64,000 nucleotides of DNA. It comes from Candidatus Marinarcus aquaticus. Lineage in GTDB: Bacteria > Campylobacterota > Campylobacteria > Campylobacterales > Arcobacteraceae. Under the pieces are notes generated by a model, which saw nothing but the letters and a program-made list of their open reading frames with translations, ran no database searches and was not told the DNA's origin. Position numbers and translations under genes: made by a program. The stretch lies in the NCBI RefSeq assembly GCF_004116335.1, contig NZ_PDKN01000009.1:1-64000 (forward strand), read 5' to 3'. Shown here piece after piece: positions 14,880 to 31,030 of the stretch (positions within the stretch are counted from its first letter, which is position 1; the number at the start of each line of letters is the position of its first letter).

Positions 14880-15176
14880 TACATTACAACTAAAAGTGAT
14901 ACAAGAATAAATACTTAAAGGTGTTTTGTCTTTTTCATAAGTCCAATTTGAGAAAAGATACAATGTGAATGTTATTCAATCCAAGGTGTTAATTGAATAA
15001 ATTGGTGTCTTTAGTCTAGGAGTCATTCCAAAGATATTGAAAAATAGATTTCAATAAATATGTGAAAGAGTCCTTATTTGATACTCATTTTACTCAAAAT
15101 ACTATGAGTGATATATTTTAATGTCTCTACTAAGTAATTTTATAATAATATAATTATAAATTAACTTGGAGAACAT
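14858..15176. promoter_or_regulatory. Transposon left end with candidate TnsB-binding repeats
   Basis: This gene-free 319 bp stretch holds the left terminus and three similar short motifs in one orientation: ATTACAA (14883-14889), GATACAA (14898-14904) and GATACAA (14957-14963). The same motif occurs inverted near the right end. Tn7 ends carry several TnsB sites in this arrangement. The remaining ~200 bp are AT-rich and probably contain the promoter of the NACHT gene. TAACTTGGAG precedes its ATG. Confidence 0.6.
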
Positions 15177-18110
15177 ATGTCACAATTTCTTAAAAAACTT
15201 ATCTGTGAAGAAGAAAATCTTTTTTTAGAATATAAGTCTCAATGGTATTGGAAAGAAAATGAAAAACCTACTCCTAACGAATGGGGAGAATTTTTAAAAG
15301 ATTTTTCTGCTTTAGTAAATTGTTCTGAAGAATACATTGAAGAAAGTAAATATTTAATTATTGGAATAGATGAAAACCAAAAAGAAATTGAAAACAGAGT
15401 CATAGATGTTAAGTTTCTCCAAGATAGTAAATATTCAGATTTAGTTTTTTTTAAAAATGAGGTAGTTAAAAAAATAAATTCTTTTTTTAGAACTGATAGT
15501 GATGAAGAAATAGTTTATAATGACTTCTCAATATCTACATTTATTATAGACAATAAAAAAGTTTTAGTTTTTGAATTGTTACCAACAAAAAATTTATTAA
15601 TTTTAGACAAGGACTTGATGGATAAAAATAGAACAGAAAAAAGAAACAATGTTTTTATTAGAGAATTAAAAAAAATAAATGATCCTCAAGTTGCCAATGC
15701 TTCACCAGAAATTTTAGGAAAATTACAAAATGCTATAACAGCATATAAAGTGAAAAAAAACAAAGAAGAAAAAAAAGATAGAAGTATTGAGAAAACAATC
15801 AATCTCTTTATACAAAATAATGATATTTATGAATTAGAAACACCTATAAAAGAAAAAATTTGGTCTGAAAATATACATTTTGAATTATATCCTGTTAAGT
15901 CTGCTTTTCATAATATTGATTTTATATACATATATGATAGAACAAGTCAACAAAAAACATATAACTATCTGTTGAGAGAAGGCTTATTGGCAGATAATGC
16001 TCAAAAATGGATAATAATTGATAACGGTTTAAAAAAAGATATAAATGGTATATTGACAAAATTTAAGGCTGATAAAGTTTATTCTTTGGATGAGTTTGCT
16101 TATGAACATCTATATAAAAAGTATTTTGAGGATAGTGTCTATCATGATGGAAAGTTTAAAGCCCAAGAGCAAATAAAAAATTTTGTTGAACCCTACACAT
16201 CAAAGTCAAATGAAAAAAATGCATTTTTAATTTTATCAGAGTGGTATAATCAGGTTTCAAAACCTCTTATGGTAATAAAAGGTTATGGTGGTATAGGTAA
16301 AACAACCTTAGTTAAATATTTTTTAGACGATTTATTTTCTCATAATAGTGATAATGAAGTGAATTCTAAAATCCTTTTCATTGACTCAAAAGAAATACTT
16401 GATGAAATTTCAAAACAAAATACAGTGAACAATATTTATGATTTTTATGATGCTCTTGCAAAACAAAAAAATATTGAGAAAAAATTAGGAAAAGAGTTAC
16501 TAGAGTTGTCTGTAGATAATGGTAACTTATTAATTGTACTTGATGGTATAGATGAAGTTATTGCTAAATTAGTAAGTAGATTTGATATCGAAAACTTTAT
16601 AAATACAATATATAATAATTATTCTTTAGGTAATGAAAAAACGAAAATTATTATTACTTGTAGAGACTATTTTTGGAATTCAAATATTGCTTCAAGCTAT
16701 AAAATAGATACTTTAGAGTTAGAAGCATTTACTAGAGAATTAGCTGAGAAATTTTTTAGAAAACAATTTACAGAAACATCTAAAGAACTTGAGAAATGTT
16801 TAAAGTATGCTGATGAGTTTGCTCTTAGTGAAGAGGATAAGGATATCTATATACCCTATATTCTTGATGTTATTATGGATATGGTAAAACAGCAGAAAGA
16901 GCTTGGTAGTGTTAATAGAGGTGATATAGAAACTGATTTGTTAAATACAGAGATTACAAATGATTATTTTATAGGGAGAATGTGTAATAGAGAAATAGCT
17001 AAGTTAGAAAACTTATCTATTGATTTACAACTACAAGTTTTTATAAATATGGCTATTAATTTTAATGGTGTAGTTTCTCATGAGTCTAGAAAAAAATTAT
17101 TCACAAATGTTCAAACTACATTTTCAGAGTCTTTAGTCAAAAAATTTAAAGGTCATCCTTTAATCTCTTACCAAAATGAAACAATGACATTTCGATATGA
17201 TTTTTTTAGAGAATTTTTTATAAATTTATATATCAGTAAGTTTTTTACTATCCGTGATAGCATGGTCTTGCAGGATGATTTTAAAGAAATCATGATTGAA
17301 TATATAAAGTATGATAATAGTTTCACAGAATATATTAGTCGAAGAATAAAGTTTGATGATGAGTTTCAATTATTTACAATTAGTATTTTAGAAGACTTAA
17401 TAGAAGAACTTAAAAAAGAAGAATTATTAGAAACAAGAAGTCTTATATCTTCAATCTTGATTTTATTATTAGTCTCTTTGCGAGAATCAAATCAAAAAAA
17501 TGATATTGTTGCAAAAACTGAACTTTTAGTTAATATCTTTGGTCAGAATTTAGAGTTTTTGACTCTTATAAATCTTTTTGGAGCTGATAAGAATAATTAT
17601 CCAATTTTTAATTTTGAAGGGAAAACTATTAAAAATGCTTGGTTTGAAAACTATGAGTATTTTTGGGAATGCAAATACGATGAGAATACTAGCTTTGAAG
17701 ATTCAACATTTAAGTATCTTGAACCAAGAAAACAAATAAGTTTACCTAAGATTCATGAGAAATTGTTTAAAGACTGTGATATATCTGGTATTGAAAAGAT
17801 TATTCAAAGTGAAAAAAGCAAACATGAAACTAAAACAAAACAAATCAAGAACAATTTATTGAAAATTTTCCGACACTTTGAACAAAGTGGCACATTTAAA
17901 GAAAAAAAGATTGATGATACACGAAAGAAATGTAATACAGTTATTTTAGATAAATTGATTTATAATAATGTAATAGAAGTCTATAAAAATCCGAGTCGAC
18001 CTACATTAAAGCAATATAGAGTTTTAGATGAATATCATAACATCGTAAAAGTTCTAAGTCAAGAAGGTAGTTGTTTAGAATTTGAAAAAGTTCTTCAGTT
18101 TATAGAGTAA
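15177..18110 (+). CDS. AlbA/Schlafen-like plus NACHT NTPase, candidate anti-phage protein
   Basis: 977 residues. The first ~165 residues resemble the AlbA_2/Schlafen DNA-binding domain (LFLEYKSQWYW, then KYLIIGIDENQ and NNVFIREL). A middle region of unknown fold (about 220-330) follows. Next is a STAND/NACHT-type NTPase with Walker A GYGGIGKTTL at 369-378, Walker B LLIVLDGIDEV at about 451-461 and the sensor-like KIIITCRDYFW. The C-terminal ~400 residues are helical and would be the sensor. STAND NTPases in bacteria commonly detect phage proteins and trigger an effector (Avs, bNACHT). Which part is the effector here is unclear. It is the cargo gene nearest the left end, where Tn7-like elements often carry defence genes. 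Confidence 0.72.
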   Translation: MSQFLKKLICEEENLFLEYKSQWYWKENEKPTPNEWGEFLKDFSALVNCSEEYIEESKYLIIGIDENQKEIENRVIDVKFLQDSKYSDLVFFKNEVVKKINSFFRTDSDEEIVYNDFSISTFIIDNKKVLVFELLPTKNLLILDKDLMDKNRTEKRNNVFIRELKKINDPQVANASPEILGKLQNAITAYKVKKNKEEKKDRSIEKTINLFIQNNDIYELETPIKEKIWSENIHFELYPVKSAFHNIDFIYIYDRTSQQKTYNYLLREGLLADNAQKWIIIDNGLKKDINGILTKFKADKVYSLDEFAYEHLYKKYFEDSVYHDGKFKAQEQIKNFVEPYTSKSNEKNAFLILSEWYNQVSKPLMVIKGYGGIGKTTLVKYFLDDLFSHNSDNEVNSKILFIDSKEILDEISKQNTVNNIYDFYDALAKQKNIEKKLGKELLELSVDNGNLLIVLDGIDEVIAKLVSRFDIENFINTIYNNYSLGNEKTKIIITCRDYFWNSNIASSYKIDTLELEAFTRELAEKFFRKQFTETSKELEKCLKYADEFALSEEDKDIYIPYILDVIMDMVKQQKELGSVNRGDIETDLLNTEITNDYFIGRMCNREIAKLENLSIDLQLQVFINMAINFNGVVSHESRKKLFTNVQTTFSESLVKKFKGHPLISYQNETMTFRYDFFREFFINLYISKFFTIRDSMVLQDDFKEIMIEYIKYDNSFTEYISRRIKFDDEFQLFTISILEDLIEELKKEELLETRSLISSILILLLVSLRESNQKNDIVAKTELLVNIFGQNLEFLTLINLFGADKNNYPIFNFEGKTIKNAWFENYEYFWECKYDENTSFEDSTFKYLEPRKQISLPKIHEKLFKDCDISGIEKIIQSEKSKHETKTKQIKNNLLKIFRHFEQSGTFKEKKIDDTRKKCNTVILDKLIYNNVIEVYKNPSRPTLKQYRVLDEYHNIVKVLSQEGSCLEFEKVLQFIE

Positions 18111-18316
18111 ATCAATTTAACTAATATAATGATTATGACACTAAAATTCTATACAAGATTTATTTTTTAGATATAATTAGACACTTAGTTATATATTGGA
18201 GTGAGGATGCTTTTGTCAGAAACAACAATGAGGCTAAACTCTTATTAGGTCAACAAGCAAAAGGTGAAGGTTCAAATCTTTCTGTTAAACGATTCGCTAT
18301 AATTAAAGGAGCAATC

Positions 18317-18403
18317 ATGATTAAAAAAAATATCATAACAATTTCTCTGACAGCATCTTTAACACTGGGCATCGGTGCGTCTCATCCTCAGCCCAATATA
18401 TAA
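18317..18403 (+). pseudogene. Orphan signal-peptide ORF / gene remnant
   Basis: AAAGGAG followed by an ATG encodes a 28-residue peptide with a typical export signal (MIKKNIITISLTASLTLGIG) and then stops at once. The same frame is open upstream without a start codon from about 18130, and its last part (from about 18208) reads EAKLLLGQQAKGEGSNL, as if from the end of another gene. Base composition from about 18208 is closer to the host flanks than to the cargo. It looks like the scar of an earlier gene exchange, cut off at the end of the DNase gene. Confidence 0.35.
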
Positions 18404-18405
18404 GT

Positions 18406-19146
18406 TCAATTTGAGATAAAAGGGTTTGTATTCCCTTGAATCTTTTCAATCCTTTTATTTCTCTCAATCTCCCATCCATCAACTGGGTCTTGTTTACTCC
18501 AAGCTTCAAGTAGTTGCTTTTGTTGTTTAGATATTATCATTCCATATCTATCTTCAAAATAGAAGTATGTTCTTGCAATATTGCCTCTGATATCTTCTTT
18601 AGGTTCAGCTCTTTTTGCTTTAAAATCTACTTCAAAATCTATACTTTGACCATAACGTCTTTCTTCACCTTCAATCATGGCATATCTAAAGTTTGATCTA
18701 TCGGCATTTAATTCACCAATAGCAGGCACTAGGTTATGTAAATCAGCTTGCATGTATTGATATTGCTTATTTACTTTAGTACAACACTTTCTTCCTTTAT
18801 AGACTTTCCCTTTAGAGTTAACACACTCTTCATTACCTTCTCTCCAACAAACAAATTGTCGTCCAAAGTTCTCAGCAGGAATAACATGCTCCCATTCAAT
18901 TCGTCTTGCTCTTTTATTTACTTTACCTGATTTGGTATATTCATTTCTAGGAGTATATCCACAAGATCTTCTATCAATCATATTATTCTTATCTTTATAG
19001 TTATACTTACAATCAGAATAGAAAGTAACTTGATGACCTTTATAAACATCTCTTAATAGTTTTTTAGATTTTGAGAATGAAGAGATGGTATCGTTAGCAT
19101 TGAGAATAAAGATACTTAAAAAAGATAGAAAAAAGATTTTAAACAT
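18406..19146 (-). CDS. Secreted endonuclease I (EndA/Dns/NucM family)
   Basis: 246 residues with a signal peptide (MFKIFFLSFLSIFILNA). The mature protein carries the endonuclease I core: RRIEWEHVIPAENFGR, with the catalytic His in WEHVIPA; DLHNLVPAIGELNADRSN, with the conserved Asn; and several Cys likely in disulfides. Family members are periplasmic or extracellular nucleases that cut double-stranded DNA, and in several bacteria (Vibrio, and Campylobacter jejuni through its CJIE1 island) they lower natural transformation. It is the only cargo gene on the minus strand in the left half and seems monocistronic. GGAAC precedes the ATG. Its presence inside an element that disrupts comM is notable. 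Confidence 0.93.
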   Translation of the reverse strand: MFKIFFLSFLSIFILNANDTISSFSKSKKLLRDVYKGHQVTFYSDCKYNYKDKNNMIDRRSCGYTPRNEYTKSGKVNKRARRIEWEHVIPAENFGRQFVCWREGNEECVNSKGKVYKGRKCCTKVNKQYQYMQADLHNLVPAIGELNADRSNFRYAMIEGEERRYGQSIDFEVDFKAKRAEPKEDIRGNIARTYFYFEDRYGMIISKQQKQLLEAWSKQDPVDGWEIERNKRIEKIQGNTNPFISN

Positions 19147-19279
19147 TGAGTTCCTTTAATAGTCACTATTATATTATAAAGAGATAAGTTTTTATCTTAA
19201 AGTAAGTCTACTAATAAAATAAACATTACTAATTGCAATTTTTTTAATTACTTGCCTTAATTTTTACTACTATTTTAAA

Positions 19280-19597
19280 ATGAAAAAAAGTATCGATTTT
19301 TTAGAACAATTAAGTAATGAAAATTATTCAAAAATTACTCATCTTAGATTTAACAATAATATAAATGAATCAACTAAGCAAATTAAAGCTCGTATTGACA
19401 TACTTAATTGGGCCAATGAAATGGTCTATTTTTATATCAAAAAAGAGAAAGGTTTTTTAGAAGAATTCTTGAATGAAATCAAGCTTCAAAAAAACCAAAT
19501 AAGTATAATAAAAGAGGGTGAATATAAGAAAGCTTTATTGGCTCAATTGGATCAATTGGAGAAGGAAATTAATGATCGAATTAATAGTGGGAAGTAG
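19280..19597 (+). CDS. Small hypothetical cargo protein, coiled-coil
   Basis: 105 residues, highly charged, mostly helical, with a probable coiled coil over its second half (KGFLEEFLNEIKLQKNQIS to QLDQLEKEINDRINSG). No signal peptide, membrane helix or recognised family. Its 3' end overlaps in another frame the start of a 39-codon membrane-peptide ORF, suggesting a coupled pair. No strong ribosome-binding site precedes the ATG. Confidence 0.5.
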   Translation: MKKSIDFLEQLSNENYSKITHLRFNNNINESTKQIKARIDILNWANEMVYFYIKKEKGFLEEFLNEIKLQKNQISIIKEGEYKKALLAQLDQLEKEINDRINSGK

Positions 19598-19691
19598 TAC
19601 TATTTTAGTATTAATATTTGTGTACATTTTTTATAAAGAAAAAACTGTGCATAAAAACAAGAAAAAGTTTTCAGAGAGAGTACATAAATAG
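19572..19691 (+). CDS. Small single-pass membrane peptide
   Basis: A 39-residue ORF that begins inside the end of the preceding gene with AAGGA seven bases upstream of the ATG. The product has one hydrophobic helix (residues about 4-21, IVGSSTILVLIFVYIF) and then a strongly basic tail. Out-of-frame overlap with a charged soluble partner is common in small toxin-like or membrane-anchoring pairs, but no function can be assigned. It could be a chance ORF, though the ribosome-binding site argues for translation. Confidence 0.45.
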   Translation: MIELIVGSSTILVLIFVYIFYKEKTVHKNKKKFSERVHK

Positions 19692-19838
19692 ATGTAGTTT
19701 AATGTTAAATTGATTTAATGATATTTTCTTTTTTTTGAGTACTTTTTTGAGTTTTATTTGTAGATTATGTTGTTATAAATTTATGCATAATAATTAATAT
19801 TTTATATTGATATAAGAGTTTTAATTATTTCAAAAGTG

Positions 19839-20129
19839 ATGAAAAAGTATAATTTTATTTTATATACACAAAATTTAGTTTTACCTCCTAAAGATTTCAC
19901 GAATAATTATTGTTCGGACTTAGTAGAGTTATTCCAATTTAGTGAGCCATGTGCTTGGCAATTATTGGATGCAGTGAAAGATGATTTAGATAATAAACTT
20001 TCAAATTATATTGTGAATCAAAATAATATTCAAGATTTTATAATAAAAAATTATGAACAAACTAAATTTTACTCAATTGAAACATTAATGAAAAAACTAG
20101 AAGTAAAAAAAATTAAAAGCGATGCTTAA
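19839..20129 (+). CDS. Small hypothetical protein upstream of the ParB-methyltransferase pair
   Basis: 96 residues from the ATG at 19839; a GTG one codon earlier is also possible. Predicted soluble and helical, with no recognised domain. It ends 34 bp before the ParB-like gene and runs the same way, so it is likely the first gene of a three-gene unit with ParB-like and Dam-like proteins. The preceding 147 bp (19692-19838) are very AT-rich, show no gene and probably hold the promoter. Confidence 0.5.
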   Translation: MKKYNFILYTQNLVLPPKDFTNNYCSDLVELFQFSEPCAWQLLDAVKDDLDNKLSNYIVNQNNIQDFIIKNYEQTKFYSIETLMKKLEVKKIKSDA

Positions 20130-20163
20130 TGCAGTATAATTGCTATTAAGAAAGGATTAAATT

Positions 20164-21684
20164 TTGCAATCTAAATATGAATGGTTAGAAAAAAAAACTC
20201 CAAGATCTGTTGAACAATTAAGATTATGGTCAGAAAACCCTAGGTTAAATCCACAAGAGGAACATATAACATTAAGTGACTTTGCAGAAGATTTTACACA
20301 AGAAGGTCCTGATAAGAAGAGTTTTTTTTCTTTAATTAATTCTATAGTTGAAGAGGGATTTGTTCCTGCAGATCCAATTATTGTATGGCAAGACTCTACG
20401 AATCACAAATATTATGTTGCAGAAGGTAATAGACGAATATTAGCGTTAAAATTATTAAGAAATCCAAATAAGGCACCAAAAGGAATAAGAGCACATATTA
20501 GAAAAGCATCTAATAAGATTAACTTAATGGAATTGGAAAAGGTAAATGTTTATGTTGCTCCAAGTTTTGAAGATGCTGAATGGTACATTAATCAACGGAA
20601 CAGTGCATCTTCTCTACAACAAAGATGGTCTAGAGTGCAACAACAAAGATGGATTCTAGAATTATATAATAAACACAATGGAGATTTTGAAAAAATCACT
20701 ACAATTACAAAATTATCAAAAAGTGATTTAGAGAACTTCTTTAGAATTCTTAAAATAAAAGATTTTATTAAAATTGATAATGTTAAATCTTGTTTAAATA
20801 AGTCTGAATTTGACAAAGCAGATTCTTATAAATTTCCCATCACTATTTTAGAGAGATTTTTTAATTTTTCGGAGGTCAGAAAAAGATGGGGGCTTGTATT
20901 TGATGGTAATGAAGTTAATATTATTTCAAATAAAAAAAGTTTTTATTATGCATTTTCAGAATTAATTAAACGCATTGTAAATGAGAGTGATAATAAAATT
21001 AATACTCGTATGACAACAGAAAATTTGGAGGAGATATTAAATAGTTTACCTACAGTTACTTTTAGTTCAGATGATATAAGGAACCAAGATAGTAATAATG
21101 AATCTGCTGCTATAAGAAATAATGAAGTTGAAGATACAGAAGAAAAGAAAGAAGAAGATACATTAAAAAATAATTCTTCAGAAACAACAAACTCAAAGAC
21201 AATACAAGCAATGAAAGGTAATCCGAATAGAAATCGTCTCGTATTGTCAATTTATAAATTAAATACGGATAGTTACAGATTGGAAAAGTTGTTTAATGAG
21301 TTTAAATCAATTTCAGTTTCAAAATATCCAAGTACAATTGCATCAGCACTAAGAGTATTTTTAGACTTGGCTGTTTTTGACTATATTACAAGAGAGAACA
21401 TTGTAGAAGATATTCAAAAAAAATATCAAGATAGTTTAAGAAATATTGTTTTAAAGAAAAAATTACAATACATAGAAGAAACACATTTTTCAGCAAGCAA
21501 TAAAAATAAACAAATTATAAAAAGATTATTAAATCCTGATCAACAATTTTCTTTAGATACTTTAAATGGGTTTATCCATAATAATGATACATATGATTTA
21601 AATAGAAATGTAATAAATGGATTTTGGGATTTTTTATTTCCACTTTTTGATGAATTTTTAGATATTAAGGAAGTAGATGTTTAA
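20164..21684 (+). CDS. ParB/Srx-domain protein (cargo)
   Basis: 506 residues starting at TTG (20164), with AAAGGA at normal spacing. The N-terminal ~100 residues form a ParB/sulfiredoxin-type domain, with PIIVWQD followed by YYVAEGNRRILALKLL (the family motif GxRR appears as GNRR). A helix-turn-helix-like segment (ITKLSKSDLENFFRILK) follows at about 170-200, then an acidic low-complexity linker (about 300-345) and a helical C-terminal domain. There is no ParA gene nearby, so plasmid partition is unlikely. ParB-type domains also act as CTPases or nucleases in modification and defence modules. Its end overlaps the methyltransferase start by eight bases, pointing to a joint function. Confidence 0.75.
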   Translation: MQSKYEWLEKKTPRSVEQLRLWSENPRLNPQEEHITLSDFAEDFTQEGPDKKSFFSLINSIVEEGFVPADPIIVWQDSTNHKYYVAEGNRRILALKLLRNPNKAPKGIRAHIRKASNKINLMELEKVNVYVAPSFEDAEWYINQRNSASSLQQRWSRVQQQRWILELYNKHNGDFEKITTITKLSKSDLENFFRILKIKDFIKIDNVKSCLNKSEFDKADSYKFPITILERFFNFSEVRKRWGLVFDGNEVNIISNKKSFYYAFSELIKRIVNESDNKINTRMTTENLEEILNSLPTVTFSSDDIRNQDSNNESAAIRNNEVEDTEEKKEEDTLKNNSSETTNSKTIQAMKGNPNRNRLVLSIYKLNTDSYRLEKLFNEFKSISVSKYPSTIASALRVFLDLAVFDYITRENIVEDIQKKYQDSLRNIVLKKKLQYIEETHFSASNKNKQIIKRLLNPDQQFSLDTLNGFIHNNDTYDLNRNVINGFWDFLFPLFDEFLDIKEVDV

Positions 21685-22579
21685 TTCACCACTTCGTTAT
21701 CCAGGCGGTAAAAATAAATTAGCTGCTTTTATTGCTAATATTTGTATTGATAATAAGATTAATGGCCATTATGTTGAACCATACTCAGGTGGTGCTTCAG
21801 TTGCGTTGTTTTTATTATTAGAAGGGTATGTTAATAGAATTACAATTAATGATAAAGATAGATCAATTTATGCATTTTGGTATTCATTATTATATAAAAC
21901 AGATGAGTTATGCCAACTTATTGAAAATACAGAGGTTTCAATAGATGAGTGGAAAAAACAAAAAGAGGTACAAGTACACAAAGACCATGAAAACTTATTG
22001 ACTTTGGGCTTTTCTACGTTATTTCTAAATAGAACTAATCGCTCAGGCATAATAACAGCTGGTGTCATGGGAGGGCTTGAACAGAATGGTAATTATTTAA
22101 TAGATTGCCGATTTAATAAGGCAGAAATTATTCGAAGAATCAAAAAAATAGCTAAGAGAAAGAATGACATTGATTTATATAAGAAAGATGCAATTGAATT
22201 AATAGATAAGGTTCAAAGTGAGTCATTAGATAATAATATTATATTTTATTTTGATCCACCTTATTATGATAAAGGTAGTAGCTTATATATGAACCATTAT
22301 AAGAAGGATAATCATAGAGAAGTTAGTGAAAAAATAAAGCAGATAAAAAATATTAGATGGATTGTTTCATACGATAATGTACCTGAAATACAGAAATTAT
22401 ATTCAGGATGTTCAAAAAAAGAATATTCATTTATGCACACAGCACATAGTAGTAGGTTAGGAAAAGAGATTTTATTTTTTAGTGAGAATGTAATTCAACC
22501 AAAAATTAAAAACTGGACACCTTTAAATTTTAAATATAAGAAAAACAATACGAAAAAAATAGTCTATATCTCTAAATAA
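21677..22579 (+). CDS. D12-class DNA adenine-N6 methyltransferase (Dam-like)
   Basis: 300 residues. Motif I FNSPLRYPGGKNKL (SAM binding) at the N-terminus and the catalytic DPPYYDKG (about residue 194) identify a Dam/DpnM-type D12 adenine methyltransferase. VEPYSGGASVALFLL (34-48) is the second SAM-binding element. GATC is the usual target for this class, but specificity cannot be read from sequence. No restriction endonuclease gene adjoins it; the overlapping ParB-like gene is the only obvious partner. It could protect the element, mark DNA for the partner, or regulate transposition. Confidence 0.93.
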   Translation: MFNSPLRYPGGKNKLAAFIANICIDNKINGHYVEPYSGGASVALFLLLEGYVNRITINDKDRSIYAFWYSLLYKTDELCQLIENTEVSIDEWKKQKEVQVHKDHENLLTLGFSTLFLNRTNRSGIITAGVMGGLEQNGNYLIDCRFNKAEIIRRIKKIAKRKNDIDLYKKDAIELIDKVQSESLDNNIIFYFDPPYYDKGSSLYMNHYKKDNHREVSEKIKQIKNIRWIVSYDNVPEIQKLYSGCSKKEYSFMHTAHSSRLGKEILFFSENVIQPKIKNWTPLNFKYKKNNTKKIVYISK

Positions 22580-22732
22580 TTTATATTCTTAATTGTTTTT
22601 ATCTCTAAAAATAATCTAATTACTCTAATAAACACTTGATTTTATATATTGAAAGTTAACTATTTTACTATATTTTGTTATTTTAGATTAAACAAAAAGA
22701 ATATCTACACTTAATCATGCTACAATTTTCTT

Positions 22733-24721
22733 ATGAAAACTAACGATGATGTAACTATTACCAGATTACCTGACAATGACTTTGTATATGTTGTAGTTAA
22801 TTTTGGTGTGGCTGCAAAACAAAAATTAAAATCTGAAGTTCCTAATATTCAAGTGATTCTTAGAAAAGTTGATTTAATAAATAACAAATATGTTGTTAAA
22901 AAAGAAGATGATATATTAGCTTATATTGCATTACATGAGTTAGATGCAGTGAGAATTGGAACACTTTGGAAGAGAAAGAAAAGAGTAAAAGATGTTTATT
23001 GGCAAGATTACGGAAATTTAAATTATTCAACTGATACACGTTTTAGTTTTAATTTTCAACAATATAATCCTACTACAATTACATATGAGCAAAATATCAC
23101 CGAGTTAAATGATTCATCGTTAGCTAACATATATATAAACAATTTACCTGAATCAAATTCAACAGATATAAATAAAATAAAACTACTACGAAAAACAAAA
23201 TATACAAAATTAATTGATAGTAATCACAAAACTATTCTTATTCCATGTATGGAGCTATTTGTCTCTACATATACGCCTGAAAGTAAGACTATTAAGGAAA
23301 TGTTATTAAAATTTGATGTTGATACAGCACTTGATAAATATTTAAAACCTAGTGAATGTTTAATTGATGGTGGTGATTATGTACTTAGTTTAAATGAATC
23401 CTCAAAAGGGCTTTTTGGAGATAGAAACTTACGGTTTATTGCTTATATGAAATTAAATAGTATTTCTCGACAAAGAGTAAGTAAATTGTGGAGTAGTTTA
23501 GAGTTTGATGAAGGTGATATTATTGATAAAGCACCTGTTAGGTATCCTGAAGTATTACCTTATCATCCAAACACACTTTTAATTGAGTCAGATGGTTTAT
23601 GGTTAAATGAAAATGTATTTTTAGTTTTAAGAATAAATAATAGAAGCTTACCGAAGGATTTTGATGTCAGTGTTAAATATGACAATATAAGTGTTAATAT
23701 TTTAGAAGACCATTTAAAAGAATCAGGTAGAGAAAATGAAGATATTAATAATGATGAAGAAGAAATATCTCCTGATGCGGAAACAGTCGATGTATCTAAT
23801 CCATTAACACCAGAAGAAGTACCAGGAATAAATAGTGAAGATTTAAATCTTGATAGCAATGAGGAACCTACTAAAAGAGTATTTAAGCAAAGAGTTTATA
23901 GTGAGGTTGGTGTTATTGGTGAGGAACCTAAAACATCTCATATAGTTAATAATAAACATTATGAGATAACAAAAGGTACATTGGATGAGAGGAAGGGAAA
24001 GAAAAAAGCAAAACCTTCTTTCGAATTTGATAAAACTGGAGATAACTCAAGTGAAATCAATGATGAACCTTCAGATAATGTTCCTCAGGACTTATCAAGT
24101 GCTGAAGATAGTTCAAATGATACTAAAGATGTAAAAAAATTTTATGTTGAAGAAAAAAACTTTTCACCTGAAACACAAGCTTTATTTGAAAGTGTTATAG
24201 AGGCACTTGAAAGATTACAAAAAAAATATAAAGATTTCAACTATTACTTTGTGGATAAAGAATTTGAGGATAAAACAAGTTTTACAGAGTCTAAAACCTC
24301 TTTTTATGAGACATTAGTGCCTAAAAAAAATGATTCATGGTATAGGTTAAAAGTAAGAGATAAAGAAAAAGGTGGACATAAAAATCATGGTTTTAGAGCA
24401 TATTTACTTATACATATTATAGTAAAGGGCAAGCATTACTATTTATTAGAAATTGGCAAAAAGGATGGAGAAAGTTATTCAGGATTAGTATTTCAAAGTG
24501 GAAATGATATGAAAGTTAGCATTGTGATATTGAAAGAACTCTTACAAGCTGTTGTTCAAAATAAAGGTGCATATTCTAAAGCAGATCCAAAATCAACAGA
24601 TAAAAAAGTCTTAAAACCAGTAAAGCTAGGTGTTGAATATGTTACATACAAACATACAATTAAAGAAAAGAAATATATTCGACTATATGGAAAGATCAAA
24701 AATAAACTTAATTTAGATTGA
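22733..24721 (+). CDS. TnsE-like transposition protein
   Basis: 662 residues. An N-terminal region contains ILIPCMELFVSTY (about 167-179), reminiscent of the matching part of Tn7 TnsE. A long acidic linker (about 330-480) follows, then a C-terminal domain GFRAYLLIHIIVKGKHYYLLEIGKKDG (split here by position 551-590) ending in a helical part. This resembles the TnsE C-terminal DNA-binding fold by eye. TnsE selects replicating lagging strands and conjugal DNA in Tn7 by binding the sliding clamp. Unlike in Tn7 the gene runs opposite to tnsABC and converges on the TnsF-like gene, their ends overlapping by nine bases. It is longer than Tn7 TnsE (about 540). If not TnsE, it is an unassigned element protein. 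Confidence 0.6.
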   Translation: MKTNDDVTITRLPDNDFVYVVVNFGVAAKQKLKSEVPNIQVILRKVDLINNKYVVKKEDDILAYIALHELDAVRIGTLWKRKKRVKDVYWQDYGNLNYSTDTRFSFNFQQYNPTTITYEQNITELNDSSLANIYINNLPESNSTDINKIKLLRKTKYTKLIDSNHKTILIPCMELFVSTYTPESKTIKEMLLKFDVDTALDKYLKPSECLIDGGDYVLSLNESSKGLFGDRNLRFIAYMKLNSISRQRVSKLWSSLEFDEGDIIDKAPVRYPEVLPYHPNTLLIESDGLWLNENVFLVLRINNRSLPKDFDVSVKYDNISVNILEDHLKESGRENEDINNDEEEISPDAETVDVSNPLTPEEVPGINSEDLNLDSNEEPTKRVFKQRVYSEVGVIGEEPKTSHIVNNKHYEITKGTLDERKGKKKAKPSFEFDKTGDNSSEINDEPSDNVPQDLSSAEDSSNDTKDVKKFYVEEKNFSPETQALFESVIEALERLQKKYKDFNYYFVDKEFEDKTSFTESKTSFYETLVPKKNDSWYRLKVRDKEKGGHKNHGFRAYLLIHIIVKGKHYYLLEIGKKDGESYSGLVFQSGNDMKVSIVILKELLQAVVQNKGAYSKADPKSTDKKVLKPVKLGVEYVTYKHTIKEKKYIRLYGKIKNKLNLD

Positions 24722-25885
24722 TAAAAGTTTATAATATAATTGTTCTGGTACATAAAACTTGTGATAACAACAACAAATATGATATAAATCACCTACTTTA
24801 GAAATATTATTAATACCTAAATAAACATTTTTTGGAACATAAACTCTATGAAAATATTCAATTGAAGTTCTTAAAACTCTGTTTTTTTCAAATGCTGTTA
24901 AACTCTCTTTTTTTAGCAGGTTAATTAAATTTATTTGAAGTATGTCTTTTTTTGTTTTCGAACGTTGTAGAAGTAGCTTCTTTGATTGAATTTGATGTAA
25001 GTTACCCTTGTGATGTTGATTTACAAAATTACTAAATCCTACTAATGCATTCATTTGGCCAGGATAAATCCATAGGTATCCATTAATAATACTATCATTG
25101 AGTATACAAGACTTAAAGTGCTGTTTATATTGTAGAACTTTAAATGCAGGCGTTAATGCAAGTCTTACTGAATGTATAGTTGTTTGTCCTTGGATATATT
25201 TGTTAATTAAATATTTATGATATGTATTTAGTAAAGTATATTCATATGTGTATGGTTTAAAATACGATATATAATTATCTATGATATGTAAATTTGAAAA
25301 GAGTTCTTTATATTTATCATCAATTATAATAATTTTTTTTTGTACAAGGAATTTGGTAATTAGTAGTGATTTGCTTATTTTTTCTTTTAAAAAGAAGTTT
25401 AAGATCTCTTGGTAATTTGGAAACCTAGATAGGTTATTTGCGATGTAATCAAATTTATAAAAGTAGATAAAGTACTTTTGTATAGATGCTGTTGTAAATA
25501 TACTACCTCTTTTTTTATGTAGCCACCATGTGAACTCTTCAAATAAGCCATTTGTATATTTAGAAAGCAATAAATTTAGAACAGATATTTTTTTTATTAA
25601 AGTGTTATAGTATGAACACTCTTCACAAACTCTGCCTCTTCCTGCAGGAAACTTCTTTGAACATTGTTTACAAACTCTAAAAGGTTGGCAGGTACATTTT
25701 TTACACATTGGTTGATTATCACTAGTGTAAGAATAGGTTATTGTATGCCTTCCACATAAAGAGCAAATGTCTAAACACTTTCTAAAACATGTATTACATA
25801 ATAAGGATTTTGTATTATTCTCCAATGTTCGATTAAATACATATTTTTTATAATCTTTGCATTTTGAACATTGTTGGATTTTCAT
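24713..25885 (-). CDS. tnsF: TnsF-like target selector (zinc fingers plus integrase-like helical region)
   Basis: 390 residues. The first ~100 carry at least five CxxC pairs (CSKCKDY, CNTCF, CSLCGRH, CKKC, CKQCSKKF, CEEC), i.e. several zinc ribbons. The rest is helical and basic, with segments like the core-binding domain of tyrosine recombinases (LFEEFTWWLHKKRGS and the 280-300 region). No R-K-HxxR-H-Y catalytic set is evident. TnsF of Tn6022-type elements contains an inactivated tyrosine recombinase domain and directs insertion into comM. This protein fits that description, the position after tniQ, and the observed target. It overlaps tniQ by four bases (ATGA). Confidence 0.62.
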   Translation of the reverse strand: MKIQQCSKCKDYKKYVFNRTLENNTKSLLCNTCFRKCLDICSLCGRHTITYSYTSDNQPMCKKCTCQPFRVCKQCSKKFPAGRGRVCEECSYYNTLIKKISVLNLLLSKYTNGLFEEFTWWLHKKRGSIFTTASIQKYFIYFYKFDYIANNLSRFPNYQEILNFFLKEKISKSLLITKFLVQKKIIIIDDKYKELFSNLHIIDNYISYFKPYTYEYTLLNTYHKYLINKYIQGQTTIHSVRLALTPAFKVLQYKQHFKSCILNDSIINGYLWIYPGQMNALVGFSNFVNQHHKGNLHQIQSKKLLLQRSKTKKDILQINLINLLKKESLTAFEKNRVLRTSIEYFHRVYVPKNVYLGINNISKVGDLYHICCCYHKFYVPEQLYYKLLSI

Positions 25886-26955
25886 AAGTATTCTTCAATA
25901 TGATACATTAATGTATCGACTTCTTCTTTTGATTTAGGTTTAATAATAGTTGGTTGCTTGGTGGGTTGGTTAGCTGTCCTAATTTTCAAGCTCTTACAAA
26001 GGAATTTAATAGTTTGAGAATGAGGAATAGAGTTGTTTGAACCGAATAATTGTCTATAAGTAATGCGTTGACTCAATAAGCATTTTTCAACATTGAGAAT
26101 AGGCTGTTTTAATAGCAGTGATACATTGTGCATTAAAACCATTCTCTTTTGACTGGATAGAGTATCAAGTGGTTTAGGCTCAGTTTGAAAGTTATAAGTT
26201 AAAAATTTTATATGGAGCTCATCTTTTAAGTTTTGCAATAAACTTGTCTTATTTCTTATGCGATATAAGAATTGTACTATTACTCTAACGGTGTAAAATA
26301 CTTCTTTTATAGACTTATCTAGTATTTGATACTTTGAACTGGGAATTTTATTTGTTAAAAAACATTGATTTAAAAATTGTTGGAGTTCAATTGCTTCAGA
26401 TGAGATACATAGACTATCTTCTATTGTTGATAAATCAAAGCCACAGTATATACATAGTGAGAGTTCATAGTTTGGTTCTATTAACTGAGGTGCATATGGA
26501 TGATTACATTTTGGGCATTTACTATGAAGAAGTCTCTTGTGTTTTTCGCAACAAATATTCCATGAAAGTCTTGAAAAATGAGAAAACATAATTCCTTTAT
26601 CATATAAACATTCTGGACAAAACTGAAGACCATGAGTTTTTAATATATATTTTCCTCCTGTAGGAATGACCCAAGACCACTTTGATTGAGTGATTGGTTG
26701 CTGATAGTAAATATTTGAAATCGAGTATTGAAGAGTAAGTGTGTAAATATGATTTTTAGGTATCTCTGTAACTTGAGATATTTTGTTAATAGTATCTTTA
26801 TTTAAATATTTGTCTATGTCTTTTTGAATGAGGGAAGAGTTGTCGAATATTAATTGAGATAACCTTCTTAAACTTATACCATTTGCAAACGAGAGTCTTA
26901 TAAGCCAAGAGCTTATTAACTCATGTTCATGGGGAATTAGTTTAACTGGTAGCAT
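25882..26955 (-). CDS. tniQ: TniQ/TnsD-family target-site selector
   Basis: 357 residues. The N-terminal TniQ domain starts PHEHELISSWLIRLSFANG. It is followed by a zinc-binding region with CPECLYDKG, the SRLSWNICCEKHKRLL element, CPKCNHPY and CIYCGFDL. TniQ proteins bridge a target-bound protein and the TnsC filament; TnsD of Tn7 binds the attachment site itself. The short C-terminal part suggests that DNA recognition is shared with the TnsF-like partner encoded next. The start overlaps the end of tnsC by 14 bases. Confidence 0.92.
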   Translation of the reverse strand: MLPVKLIPHEHELISSWLIRLSFANGISLRRLSQLIFDNSSLIQKDIDKYLNKDTINKISQVTEIPKNHIYTLTLQYSISNIYYQQPITQSKWSWVIPTGGKYILKTHGLQFCPECLYDKGIMFSHFSRLSWNICCEKHKRLLHSKCPKCNHPYAPQLIEPNYELSLCIYCGFDLSTIEDSLCISSEAIELQQFLNQCFLTNKIPSSKYQILDKSIKEVFYTVRVIVQFLYRIRNKTSLLQNLKDELHIKFLTYNFQTEPKPLDTLSSQKRMVLMHNVSLLLKQPILNVEKCLLSQRITYRQLFGSNNSIPHSQTIKFLCKSLKIRTANQPTKQPTIIKPKSKEEVDTLMYHIEEYL

Positions 26956-27847
26956 AATCTTTAGGGTTTGTTATTTGAGCAAGCTTCTTATCCATGATAG
27001 TTTCAATAATCTCTTGAGTGATTTCTTCAATATCTTTCTCAATAGCATACTCTGCACAAGCGATTAATACTTGATGTAAATATCCTAAGTTACCTTGACA
27101 TAATTCATATAATAATACTGCTTTTTCTTTTGAAGCTAAAAATGAAGGCTTTTTTAGGGGTAAGCGTTTTTCAAAACTTTGAAGTAATCCTCTAAACTCC
27201 TGATTTAAGTCCCATTTATTCAATTTGATAATATCAAATCTACTTACTAATTGAGGATCATTATATAAAAGAGTAGCAGCAGCTTTTGTACCAACACCAA
27301 TCATCGGTATCATAAGTTCATTACTCAAATTTTTAATTTGGTCTAAGATAGTACATTGTTTAGTGGGAGTACCTCTTAATAAATTATGCAACTCATCAAA
27401 AATAATGGTCTTAACCTGACATATTTTTAGTAAATGAATGGCTTGTTGTTTTAGTTTTAAAGTAGAATGTGAAACTCTATATGGTGCCCAGAATTGATCT
27501 AATATTGATGTATAAAATTCTTTTTCCGATGAACCTTGAATATTAACATATATAACAGGTTTTAAAGTAGTTGTTCCGTCTAAAGTTTCCATTTTCTTAT
27601 TGGGATTCATTGCATAAAACTTTTTTGCAATTGTAGTTTTTCCCATATTTGGGTCACCAATAAGTAATAAGTTTTGCATTCGATTTTTTTTAGGTTTATT
27701 CATAAAGTTTGACATGACTTGAATGACTTCTTTTGCTTTAGGATAATAAATCATAAAATCTTGATCTAAAGAATAGGTTCGTTCCTCTTTGCTTAGAGAC
27801 ATCAGGTGTTGAAAATCAGGGTGAATGTGTTCATAATTTATTTGCAT
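26942..27847 (-). CDS. tnsC: TnsC/TniB-type AAA+ transposition regulator
   Basis: 301 residues. Walker A GDPNMGKTT at 64-72 and Walker B IIFDELHNLL at about 148-157. TnsC forms ATP-dependent filaments on the target selected by TniQ and activates TnsAB. Its length is closer to TniB (~300) than to Tn7 TnsC (~550), so this is the compact type. It starts ten bases after tnsB ends, with AAGGAT upstream of the ATG. Confidence 0.94.
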   Translation of the reverse strand: MQINYEHIHPDFQHLMSLSKEERTYSLDQDFMIYYPKAKEVIQVMSNFMNKPKKNRMQNLLLIGDPNMGKTTIAKKFYAMNPNKKMETLDGTTTLKPVIYVNIQGSSEKEFYTSILDQFWAPYRVSHSTLKLKQQAIHLLKICQVKTIIFDELHNLLRGTPTKQCTILDQIKNLSNELMIPMIGVGTKAAATLLYNDPQLVSRFDIIKLNKWDLNQEFRGLLQSFEKRLPLKKPSFLASKEKAVLLYELCQGNLGYLHQVLIACAEYAIEKDIEEITQEIIETIMDKKLAQITNPKDYATS

Positions 27848-27856
27848 ATAGTATCC

Positions 27857-29755
27857 TTAATCAAAGTCAGGTATTTCTTCATCCCAAAAATCATGAGATT
27901 GTCTAGTACGAGTAGATTTTTTTACTTGCTTAATGTCTTGAATATTTTGAGTGAGTTTTATATTGTTTTTTACTTTTTGTATAAACTTTTTCTGCTTCTT
28001 AGTCTTTCGTACAGATTCCTTTACATGGTCATAAAGTTCTTTATAACCAAGAATAATATTACGTTCATTTAAAACTTGATTATTGACTTTGGAAATATTT
28101 GCTTTAATCATATTAAGCTCTTGTAAACTCATTCGTGGTATTTCTGTATTAGCCAATGGTATTTCATGATATTCTTGTTGTAAATTATCATAAAACCATA
28201 TAGTGGAAATATCTCTAGGATCTCGTTTAAATATATACTGAGAGTCTTCTTTTTTCAGTTTAAGCCCTTGATCATAGCCTCTAATTTTAGTTCTGAGTAC
28301 AGGATGAAAATAGTTCAATCCATCTATTGTTACACCATTTTTTTGTACACTTCTTTCAATGGTTGGTAAAAAATCTAATGTTAAACTGGTTTCATCTACC
28401 GGTAGTTGAGGGTAGCCAATACCAGGGCACTCACTACTACCTAAAATTCCTTTTTTCCATTGTTCAAAAGGTGTTGAATCAATACCACTGTGGTAATTGT
28501 GTTGATATATTTTTGTAATGTAAAGTAATAACCATCTTTCAAATTCACTGAATGTCATACATGCATATTTCTCAGAATCATAACTACCTTTTTGCTGTAT
28601 ATTAGATTTTGGTGAACCTGGGATATCATGAACTTCAGTCATAGTTGTACCAATCAATCTTTCTATGTGTCCACCGTATTCTTTTTTTCCAATTGGACGA
28701 AACTCAATATGTATACCATTTGCAAGACAAGCTTGTTCAACAGAAAAAGACCTGAAATCAGCTCCATTATCGGTAGCTATATTATCAATTTGACCCCATA
28801 CATTCCATTCCTCTTCAATATTAAAATCATTTAACAACTTGTCTTTTTTTAAAATAGAGTTCACAATACACATACCAACTGAGACACCACTTGGTGCATC
28901 TAAAGACAGATAGTATCCAACGATCATTCTTGAATAAACATCAATTGCTAGTGTAATCCAAGGTCGTCCAATTGCAGTACGCTCTTCATCGTCAACAATT
29001 TGTAAGTCTACAAGTGTATGGTCTATTTGTACAACTTGTAATGGATAATCCGCTTTGTAGTGTTTTGGTGCAGGTGCAAACTTATCTCTTGCAGAAGCCT
29101 TGTTTTTTCTTTTTTCTAATAATTCATATTGACTGAGTTTATTGATTCTATTTCTTATAGTATTGTTACTTGGAAAGGTAAGGTTTCGTTCAAGGCATTT
29201 TATTTTTATTGTATTGATAATAGATTTAATACTTGGTTTATGCACAGTAAGATAATCATTTTTTATTGTCTCTTGAATGATATCTTCAATATCTTGCTCA
29301 ATAAAAACTGTATCTTTCTTTCGTCCTCTTTTTTGTGATAACAAGCCAGTAACAGTACCAGTTGATTTATATCCTCTGTGCCATCTATATAGGGTTGTAA
29401 AGTGAATACCTATTTCTTCTGCGTGTTGTTCAATTTCTGCTCTAGTGTCACCATTTAATATAGGTCTTATCGCAATCAATCTTTCTTCAATTTTTTTCCA
29501 ATCATCATCTGCTATATCGTTGACATCCTTATGAATATAACCATTATCTTTAATTGAATCTTTTGGTAAAGGTTTTATATGTTCTATCAAAAGTCTTTTT
29601 GCTTCATTTGTATGAATATCTATACCTATTACTTCATTAAAATCAATTAACTGAGTAATCTTAAATGTTTTGCTATCATATTTGACAAATTCACCAATAG
29701 CTAAATTTAGTTTTTCTCTTGATATTTTATGGTTAGATTGATTTTGTGAGCTCAT
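27857..29755 (-). CDS. tnsB: TnsB DDE transposase
   Basis: 632 residues from the ATG at 29755, chosen because TAGGAG lies eight bases upstream and the ATG overlaps the tnsA stop as ATGA; an earlier Met 13 codons upstream is less likely. N-terminal helix-turn-helix DNA-binding domains (about 90-225) precede the RNase H-like catalytic core with Asp245 (VVQIDHTL), Asp329 (IATDNGADF) and Glu365 (YGGHIERLIG). A Mu-type beta barrel and a basic C-terminus (KKTKKQKKFIQKVK), which would contact TnsC, follow. TnsB cuts the 3' ends and joins them to the target. Confidence 0.95.
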   Translation of the reverse strand: MSSQNQSNHKISREKLNLAIGEFVKYDSKTFKITQLIDFNEVIGIDIHTNEAKRLLIEHIKPLPKDSIKDNGYIHKDVNDIADDDWKKIEERLIAIRPILNGDTRAEIEQHAEEIGIHFTTLYRWHRGYKSTGTVTGLLSQKRGRKKDTVFIEQDIEDIIQETIKNDYLTVHKPSIKSIINTIKIKCLERNLTFPSNNTIRNRINKLSQYELLEKRKNKASARDKFAPAPKHYKADYPLQVVQIDHTLVDLQIVDDEERTAIGRPWITLAIDVYSRMIVGYYLSLDAPSGVSVGMCIVNSILKKDKLLNDFNIEEEWNVWGQIDNIATDNGADFRSFSVEQACLANGIHIEFRPIGKKEYGGHIERLIGTTMTEVHDIPGSPKSNIQQKGSYDSEKYACMTFSEFERWLLLYITKIYQHNYHSGIDSTPFEQWKKGILGSSECPGIGYPQLPVDETSLTLDFLPTIERSVQKNGVTIDGLNYFHPVLRTKIRGYDQGLKLKKEDSQYIFKRDPRDISTIWFYDNLQQEYHEIPLANTEIPRMSLQELNMIKANISKVNNQVLNERNIILGYKELYDHVKESVRKTKKQKKFIQKVKNNIKLTQNIQDIKQVKKSTRTRQSHDFWDEEIPDFD

Positions 29756-30450
29756 ATTTCTACTCCTAGATTCTCTTCTTCGATGTTTAACCAAATAACA
29801 GTATTATTATTGAGTAATACATTTAAGTCAGTTAAAATTACTTTTGTATGAAGTAAAAACCAGATATGAGATAGAGCGATACTTTTTTGGAGGTCTGTTA
29901 CATATAGATGTGTCAAAAGATGTTCAACAGTTGTATGACCAACTGCTAAAAGGTGATTTTTTATAAGTTCAATATAATCTAAATCAGCTCGAAACTCTTT
30001 ATATCGATTTAGAAAAACAATGTTTTTTAATTGAGTACTCTCTATACGATTTTCATTAAATATTTTAAATCTGTAGTCTACTTCATTACAGAATTTAATT
30101 GCAGCTTTAAATTTTAATTTTAGTGTATCTTTATTTTCAATTAGTTTATTTGATGGTTTGACTTCAACCAATAAAGGCTTAATTGGAGGTCTTTGAATAT
30201 TATTTGTATCTTTAAAAAAGACCAAAAAGTCTGGACTATAAGTACTTTTATTACCATTAGCCGTTATGTAATCAATAACTAGGGGTTGTGAGATAACATC
30301 TAGTACTATATCATTAAATTCTAAAGTTGTTAGGAATTTTTTTTCTAGGAGTGATTCAAATTGAATGCTTTTTTCACTTCTAAACGAATAAGTTCCAGAA
30401 GTACTTCCATATGTATAGCCAATTTTTCGTCTATTTAGTGGAATTTTCAC
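29752..30450 (-). CDS. tnsA: TnsA endonuclease
   Basis: 232 residues starting at GTG (30450) with GAGGAAAG upstream. The restriction-endonuclease-like active site is visible as FESLLEKKF (Glu32/Glu36), YSPDFLVFF (Asp74) and LLVEVKPS (Glu96, Lys98). The C-terminal ~80 residues form the TnsC/DNA-contacting helical part. TnsA nicks the 5' ends so that the element moves by clean cut-and-paste. It is the first gene of the transposition operon. A candidate TnsB site (30465-30471) lies just upstream of its start, which would allow self-repression as in Tn7. Confidence 0.93.
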   Translation of the reverse strand: MKIPLNRRKIGYTYGSTSGTYSFRSEKSIQFESLLEKKFLTTLEFNDIVLDVISQPLVIDYITANGNKSTYSPDFLVFFKDTNNIQRPPIKPLLVEVKPSNKLIENKDTLKLKFKAAIKFCNEVDYRFKIFNENRIESTQLKNIVFLNRYKEFRADLDYIELIKNHLLAVGHTTVEHLLTHLYVTDLQKSIALSHIWFLLHTKVILTDLNVLLNNNTVIWLNIEEENLGVEI

Positions 30451-30589
30451 ACTTTCCTCACATTTTGTAGCATTTATTAATGTATAATGTTATATGGTAA
30501 ATGTAAATTGTATCATTTTTAAATGAACCGTAAATTAACAAATTCCATAAAATTGAATTAAATTGTAGCAGGATTAAATAAAAATGTCA
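30451..30589. promoter_or_regulatory. Transposon right end with candidate TnsB-binding repeats
   Basis: The right terminus ends AAATGTCA. Three motifs in inverted orientation relative to the left end are TTGTAGC (30465-30471), TTGTATC (30508-30514) and TTGTAGC (30563-30569). Read inward they are GCTACAA or GATACAA, matching the left-end motifs. The spacing is 43 and 55 bp. The tnsA promoter must lie among these sites. A TACAAT-like -10 element could partly explain the motif, so binding remains inference. Confidence 0.6.
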
Positions 30590-31030
30590 CCTTGTGGTAA
30601 TCTTTTAAGTACACACAAAGAGTGCCGTTGCAGTGATGTGGAAGTCAATCGATATAAAGGCAGACTCTCTGAGCCCTTTTTAGATAGAATTGATTTATAT
30701 GTGACCATGACAGATGTCAATAAAAATGATCGCTCAGATGTGAGTTCTTTAGAGTTTCATGAACAAGTGCTCAAAGCATTTAAGATGCAAAAACAAAGAG
30801 CTCAAGAGAGTCTTAATGGGAAACTTGAAGATGAGATACTCAATCGTTACTGTATCTTAAATGAGGAATCACAGATGGTTTTAGATAAGGCCATTGTGAA
30901 TTTAAATCTCTCTTTTCGAAGTATCAACAAGGTTAAAAAAGTGGCACGTACCATTGCTGATTTAGAGCAGAGTGAAACAATACAACGCATACACTTAATG
31001 GAAGCATTGAGTTACAGAAAGCGTGCTTAA
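30584..31030 (+). pseudogene. comM: comM, 3' fragment
   Basis: Codons from 30593 on encode the last ~145 residues of ComM: CGNLLSTHKECRCS, the LSEPFLDRIDLYV segment with the arginine-finger region, and the C-terminal lid ending in the RSINKVKKVARTIADLEQ helix. It is in frame with the 5' fragment once the transposon is removed. The transposon terminus supplies an in-frame ATG (30584-30586) with AGGA at 30570-30573, so this part might be translated as a separate 148-residue protein. Activity without the Walker motifs is unlikely. Confidence 0.93.
30590..30594 (+). repeat. Target site duplication, right copy (CCTTG)
   Basis: Identical to the five bases preceding the left transposon end at 14853-14857. 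Removing one copy together with the element rebuilds the comM reading frame exactly through NPCPCGNLL. Confidence 0.92.

Follow-up and report, generated by a model that had tools for sequence, protein, structure and literature searches.

The Tn6022 element characterised by Faure et al. (2023) carries TnsA, TnsB, TnsC, TniQ and TnsF together with an opposite-strand TnsE, and lies in comM; their experiments found TnsF to be required and to bind both comM and TniQ (PMC10293859). The same work describes the Tsy transposon, which also targets comM with a TnsF-type selector, in this case an active tyrosine-recombinase homologue of TnsF (PMC10293859). A 2024 review holds homologues of TnsE to be almost universal among comM-targeting elements (PMC11406308). 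Our literature search returned no paper joining Tn7-like elements, comM and Arcobacter, and the terms Campylobacter/Epsilon or Epsilonproteobacteria were absent from the main texts of two large surveys.

A complete Tn7-like element interrupts comM in Candidatus Marinarcus aquaticus

The window, a 64,000-nucleotide stretch of the genome of Candidatus Marinarcus aquaticus, a member of the Arcobacteraceae like Arcobacter caeni, contains a complete Tn7-like element of 15,732 bp (14858-30589) inside comM, flanked by a perfect 5-bp duplication, CCTTG. Its parts and the interrupted gene are listed below.

13779-14857, plus strand: 5' part of comM (yifB), residues 1-360, up to the junction (TIGR00368, 1.3e-97)
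14853-14857, no strand: target-site duplication, left copy, CCTTG, identical to 30590-30594
14858-30589, no strand: whole element, terminal TGTCATTT... / ...AAATGTCA; excision with removal of one CCTTG restores comM
14858-14970, plus strand: left end, TGTCATTT and degenerate TnsB-site-like repeats resembling ATGCTACAA
15177-18110, plus strand: cargo, NACHT/STAND NTPase, 977 aa (PF05729 1.5e-7, PF24883 1.3e-8)
18406-19146, minus strand: cargo, endonuclease I-type DNase (PF04231 8e-40) with a signal-peptide-like start, the signal being read from the sequence
20164-21684, plus strand: cargo, PD-Lambda-5 protein A (PADLOC 5e-206)
21677-22579, plus strand: cargo, PD-Lambda-5 protein B, adenine methyltransferase (PADLOC 8e-118)
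22733-24721, plus strand: tnsE-like putative second selector, 662 aa, convergent to tnsF (Tn6022 TnsE homology, TnsE_C, fold search)
24713-25885, minus strand: tnsF-like putative comM selector, 390 aa, 6 CxxC (three zinc fingers; homology to Tn6022 TnsF)
25882-26955, minus strand: short tniQ, 357 aa (PF06527 above cut-off, 1.4e-16)
26942-27847, minus strand: tnsC (TniB-type AAA+), 301 aa (PF05621, TniB/TnsC, 2.2e-56)
27857-29794, minus strand: tnsB transposase, 645 aa (Mu-transposase C-terminus, Pfam 8e-8)
29752-30450, minus strand: tnsA, 232 aa (PF08722/PF08721; TnsA N/C Pfam 3e-16 and 9e-8)
30440-30589, minus strand: right end, TGACATTT and three TnsB-site-like (ATGCTACAA-like) repeats
30590-30594, no strand: target-site duplication, right copy, CCTTG, identical to the left copy
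30595-31030, plus strand: 3' part of comM (ORF list and joining of the flanks)

Joining the comM flanks minus one CCTTG gave an open 504-aa frame, and its alignment with the uninterrupted comM of a congener was gap-free (72% identity), with the tnsA end of the element facing the 3' side of comM. The order on the minus strand after tnsF was tniQ, tnsC, tnsB and tnsA, with tniQ and tnsF overlapping by 4 bp, and the TnsB was 36% identical to an Acinetobacter Tn6022-type TnsB. All six tns reading frames were open and the TGTCA/TGACA termini were perfect. The TnsB-site-like repeats of the right end showed 1, 1 and 0 mismatches (end positions 19, 74 and 117) and those of the left end about 3, 2 and 2 (end positions 19, 39 and 98), with positions 19 and 39 of the left end kept in relatives; because the left-end repeats are degenerate, present activity of the element is unproven. 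The element is real, intact-looking and of ordinary architecture for the Tn6022/AbaR kind to which it belongs; its variant features are TnsF and the point of insertion.

An earlier sequence-only reading of this DNA had described a comM element with TniQ and a TnsF-like protein together with a convergent, TnsE-like one, the last two genes overlapping by nine bases. The identities were borne out by the Pfam TniQ model and by matches to Tn6022 TnsF (E 4e-25) and TnsE (E 2e-15), the location by the CCTTG duplication and the gap-free restoration of comM, and the overlap (24713-24721) by the open reading frames 22733-24721 (+) and 24713-25885 (-). The combination so described is not new: for Tn6022 a dual-selector arrangement in comM, in which TnsABC, TniQ and TnsF are accompanied by a TnsE encoded on the other strand, is already published (PMC10293859).

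Homologues of Tn6022 TnsF and TnsE

The 390-aa protein matched TnsF from a Tn6022-type plasmid copy of Acinetobacter by tblastn (E = 4e-25) over residues 2-383 of 390, so that on sequence homology its assignment as a TnsF homologue over the full length holds; a Pfam search with it gave no match, and no NCBIfam model matched tnsE, tnsF or tniQ. It lacks the first ~98 residues of full-length TnsF and with them 6 CxxC and the first three zinc fingers. Its AlphaFold model (score 76.6) showed zinc fingers and an all-helical middle. Foldseek listed Cre among the matches to this model, but at E > 1, a resemblance too weak to confirm the dead tyrosine recombinase domain that had been proposed for this protein.

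The 662-aa protein matched, over residues 5-312 (E 2e-15), the TnsE of the same Acinetobacter copy. The TnsE_C model (PF18623) gave E 9e-4 and 19.5-22.1 bits, below the curated cut-off of 26.7, and the gene was the sole match (22.1 bits) when the genome containing the window was searched at E <= 1; the homologue in one relative (G096) scored 27.5 bits, above the cut-off. A weak score is to be expected, because the known Tn6022 TnsE on pOXA-23 itself was not matched by this model at all. The AlphaFold model was of low confidence (mean pLDDT 51.6), and in Foldseek searches of the PDB ranks 1 and 3-7 were TnsE C-terminal domains, but at E > 0.2, with no E-value passing 0.001. The TnsE-like C-terminus thus agreed with the best fold matches as a group, no single E-value being significant, and PDB sequence profile searches with TnsE alignments retrieved no TnsE. 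A sliding-clamp-binding motif is known for Tn7 TnsE only. The sequence-only reading had suggested looking for one here; by sequence patterns, no canonical motif was recognised in the 662-aa protein, nor was one found at a shared position across 12 TnsE family members including those of Acinetobacter. By sequence, the 662-aa protein is a homologue of Tn6022 TnsE.

Relatives in Campylobacterota and a copy outside comM

In samples of 104 genomes of the family and 397 of the phylum, TnsF- and TnsE-like genes co-occurred in the same genomes; the TnsE match found in one genome (G374) in the absence of TnsF was a short, stop-containing fragment. We could place nine Campylobacterota elements in comM, two of them (G049 and G366) split by contig ends, and one further copy (L030), near-identical to a comM-inserted element, lay outside comM. 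The tnsE-like gene was kept on the opposite strand in the tnsF-bearing Campylobacterota elements found, while other cargo changed. A genome scan with a Campylobacterota TnsE alignment gave five loci; the TnsE alignment that included Acinetobacter was too diverse for such a scan. Scans of IMG/VR with the TnsF and with the TnsE alignment gave no confirmed relatives. The homologues were located within Tn7-like elements rather than mainly outside them, except for one plasmid gene on pCNAC48.

Most relatives had cargo between tnsE and tnsF, and in two near-identical Sulfurimonas-type elements (L029/L030) 13 bp separated the two adjacent genes. On these grounds we no longer regard the tnsE-tnsF overlap as a special regulatory arrangement.

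The L030 element and the element that G274/L029 carries in comM were 98.98% identical over 8,110 bp. The right end of the L030 copy abutted unrelated, non-comM DNA, and comM was intact elsewhere in the same metagenome bin, a statement that a binning error could spoil, as it could not the junction, which lies within one contig. This copy fits a second, comM-independent route of transposition, for which we infer the responsible selector. That one element might combine a fixed chromosomal site with a route onto plasmids had been foreseen from sequence, and the analysis sides with this reading; the signs of insertion into replicating or conjugal DNA are indirect, namely the L030 copy outside comM and the copies on Acinetobacter and Proteus plasmids. 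Genes flanking the L030 copy (18035-19887) gave weak phage-family matches only.

No plasmid copy of the window's own lineage was found. Two plasmid-borne relatives, an Acinetobacter copy and one on Proteus pOXA-23, shared the layout tnsE(+), cargo, then opposite-strand tnsF-tniQ-tnsC-tnsB(-tnsA), the pOXA-23 copy being a complete AbaR4-type set; the plasmid is mobilizable, and the element there interrupts a colicin gene. The Aliarcobacter cryaerophilus plasmid pCNAC48 carries a tnsE-like gene (L023, 13986-15764), a remnant or stray copy; no other tns genes were found around it in the ~55 kb read.

Two further observations were made among the relatives. In Arcobacter caeni (G075, C44:100783-102046) the element ends on its right within the tnsB of another comM element, a decayed one that has its own right end at the downstream site; the first element has unlike flanks (CCTTG vs GTAAA), and two insertions were therefore probably joined by recombination. 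Beside mnmG, a second TnsE_C-like protein (~566 aa) was seen in two genomes (G062, C4:40741-47711; G096, C1:1819635-1821335), adjoining a second tnsABC-tniQ set in G062, a sign that a further Tn7-like family may carry a TnsE-like protein at mnmG.

Insertion points in comM and the length of TnsF

The nine Campylobacterota elements occupied three insertion points in comM, with perfect 5-bp duplications in all those for which both junctions were present (6/6). Site 3 lies after comM nt 876, 46 bp upstream of the start of Walker B (window numbering), and holds the elements of G096, G274 and G424, as well as those of G366 and G049, placed from junctions that lie on different contigs or at one contig end; the TnsF of site-3 elements has 12 CxxC and 481-487 aa (that of G049 being cut by a contig end). 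The window element is inserted at nt 1079, 157 bp past the start of Walker B on the downstream side, as is that of A. caeni G075 by its left junction, with TnsF of 390 and 386 aa respectively and 6 CxxC each. The elements of G486 (TnsF of 431 aa, 8 CxxC) and G062 (196 aa, 0 CxxC) lie at nt 1113-1114, ~191 bp downstream of Walker B.

In a TnsB tree the window element joined G075 (support 100/100), and G486 and G062 formed a pair that was joined next by the site-3 element of G096 (support 100/99). The tree sets the two truncated-TnsF lineages apart, and loss of the N-terminal part of TnsF with a downstream move therefore took place at least twice.

The comM target duplication of A. baumannii has been reported as ACCGC (PMC3691203). 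Three copies of this motif occur in A. baumannii comM, and the one at codon 317, ~50 bp past Walker B in the downstream direction, is the only one compatible with what Faure et al. mapped; the insertion site of the Tn6022 prototype was recalculated solely from the reported duplication. Elements with full-length TnsF therefore seem to keep close to Walker B, unlike those in which TnsF is truncated. Site 3 was considered as the Acinetobacter insertion point and rejected, as it is upstream and codon 317 downstream of Walker B.

Cargo

A complete PD-Lambda-5 defence pair (A and B, 20164-22579) adjoins tnsE. Three of the nine comM elements carry an endonuclease I-type DNase that begins with a signal-like stretch (the window; G075, 76600-77250; G486, 21091-21810). 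DNases encoded by mobile genetic elements and insertion in comM are each known to hinder transformation (PMC11472951), and with a DNase as cargo and a broken comM, transformation could be hindered twice.

Proposed mechanism and alternatives

We consider it very probable that the element is a complete Tn7-like transposon of the Tn6022/AbaR family with two target selectors. TnsA and TnsB would cut and join the element ends, and TnsC would connect them to the target, with the short TniQ as a putative bridge from TnsC to TnsF. TnsF would recognise a fixed stretch of comM, giving a single insertion there with the tnsA end towards the comM 3' side. TnsE, expressed from the opposite strand, would replace TniQ-TnsF on replicating or conjugating DNA, bringing the element onto plasmids, at which this selector is probably aimed. 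We infer which selector is responsible for each kind of insertion, and likewise that TnsF binds DNA close to where the element inserts.

The 662-aa gene might instead be cargo, for example a defence or regulatory gene, that resembles TnsE in its C-terminal domain only and has no role in target selection. The sub-threshold Pfam score, low-confidence fold and lack of a clamp motif would agree with this, as would the stray homologue on pCNAC48, around which no tns genes were detected. Against these stand the match of the N-terminal half (residues 5-312, E 2e-15) to Tn6022 TnsE, besides that of the C-terminal TnsE_C region, and the retention of the gene, always on the opposite strand, in tnsF-bearing Campylobacterota elements whose other cargo varies, and we regard the cargo explanation as improbable. 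Less far-fetched, yet still unlikely, is that TnsE is functional and the window element itself a fossil, no longer mobile through decay of its ends or genes: the 2-3 mismatches in the left-end TnsB-like repeats would be expected of such an element, whereas the six open tns frames, the perfect TGTCA/TGACA termini and duplication, and the 70% identity of its TnsB to that of A. caeni would not.

As a sub-hypothesis of the two-selector reading, the number of zinc fingers in TnsF may help to set the position in comM, the window lineage having lost the first three and moved ~200 bp downstream. In its wider form, in which the finger array is a ruler or reader of comM position and two lineages lost N-terminal fingers independently, each with its own downstream site, the proposal is tentative and less likely than not, and its sample is small (n=9 elements, two independent shifts). 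That the sites were occupied or had diverged, with TnsF unchanged in its targeting and finger loss incidental, has a chance only a little short of even. There are only nine Campylobacterota elements with two independent shifts, TnsF evolves fast, and G062, with almost no N-terminal region, shares its site with G486 and its eight CxxC; yet all full-length TnsF of Campylobacterota belong to the five elements at site 3 (G049 being cut by a contig end), TnsF is truncated in 4/4 elements at the downstream sites, and the TnsB tree separates the two truncated lineages, one of them beside a site-3 element (100/99).

The main yield of the analysis is that a known dual-selector architecture is extended to Campylobacterota. 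The correlation of three comM insertion points with TnsF truncation looks new, and this naturally occurring set of TnsF variants, each with a mapped point of insertion, makes the target reading of TnsF directly testable, which is relevant to targeted DNA insertion. Near-identical copies within comM and away from it offer evidence from nature for a second route in this family, and this evidence does not rest on resistance plasmids.

Comparison with known systems

Prototype Tn7 (TnsABC with TnsD and TnsE, at glmS) has the two-pathway logic that is proposed for the window element and probably shares with it the TnsE C-terminal fold. The window element differs in having TnsF and TniQ instead of TnsD, comM instead of glmS, and a TnsE on the opposite strand, outside the operon. 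The Tsy transposon, as described by Faure et al., has the comM target and a TnsF-type selector in common with it, but is not a Tn7-like element. The closest relative found is the comM element of Arcobacter caeni (G075/L027), with TnsB 70% and TnsF 51% identical, a similarly truncated TnsF (386 aa, 6 CxxC) and the same left junction, CCTTG|TGTCATTT; it differs in having ~5 kb of cargo between tnsE and tnsF and a right end that is fused to another comM element, itself decayed.

With Tn6022/AbaR of Acinetobacter the window element shares TnsA, TnsB, TnsC, a short TniQ (357 aa, versus about 369 aa in Tn6022-like elements), the comM target, the 5-bp duplication, homology of the core proteins, a TnsF that overlaps tniQ and a TnsE on the opposite strand. 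It differs from them in its Campylobacterota host, in having its cargo to the left of tnsE, which leaves tnsE directly beside tnsF, and in carrying PD-Lambda-5, a STAND NTPase and a DNase where they carry resistance genes. Two further differences, neither taken as defining, are a TnsF of 390 aa with 6 CxxC here against ~480-498 aa with 12 there, and insertion 157 bp downstream of Walker B here against within ~50 bp of it there.
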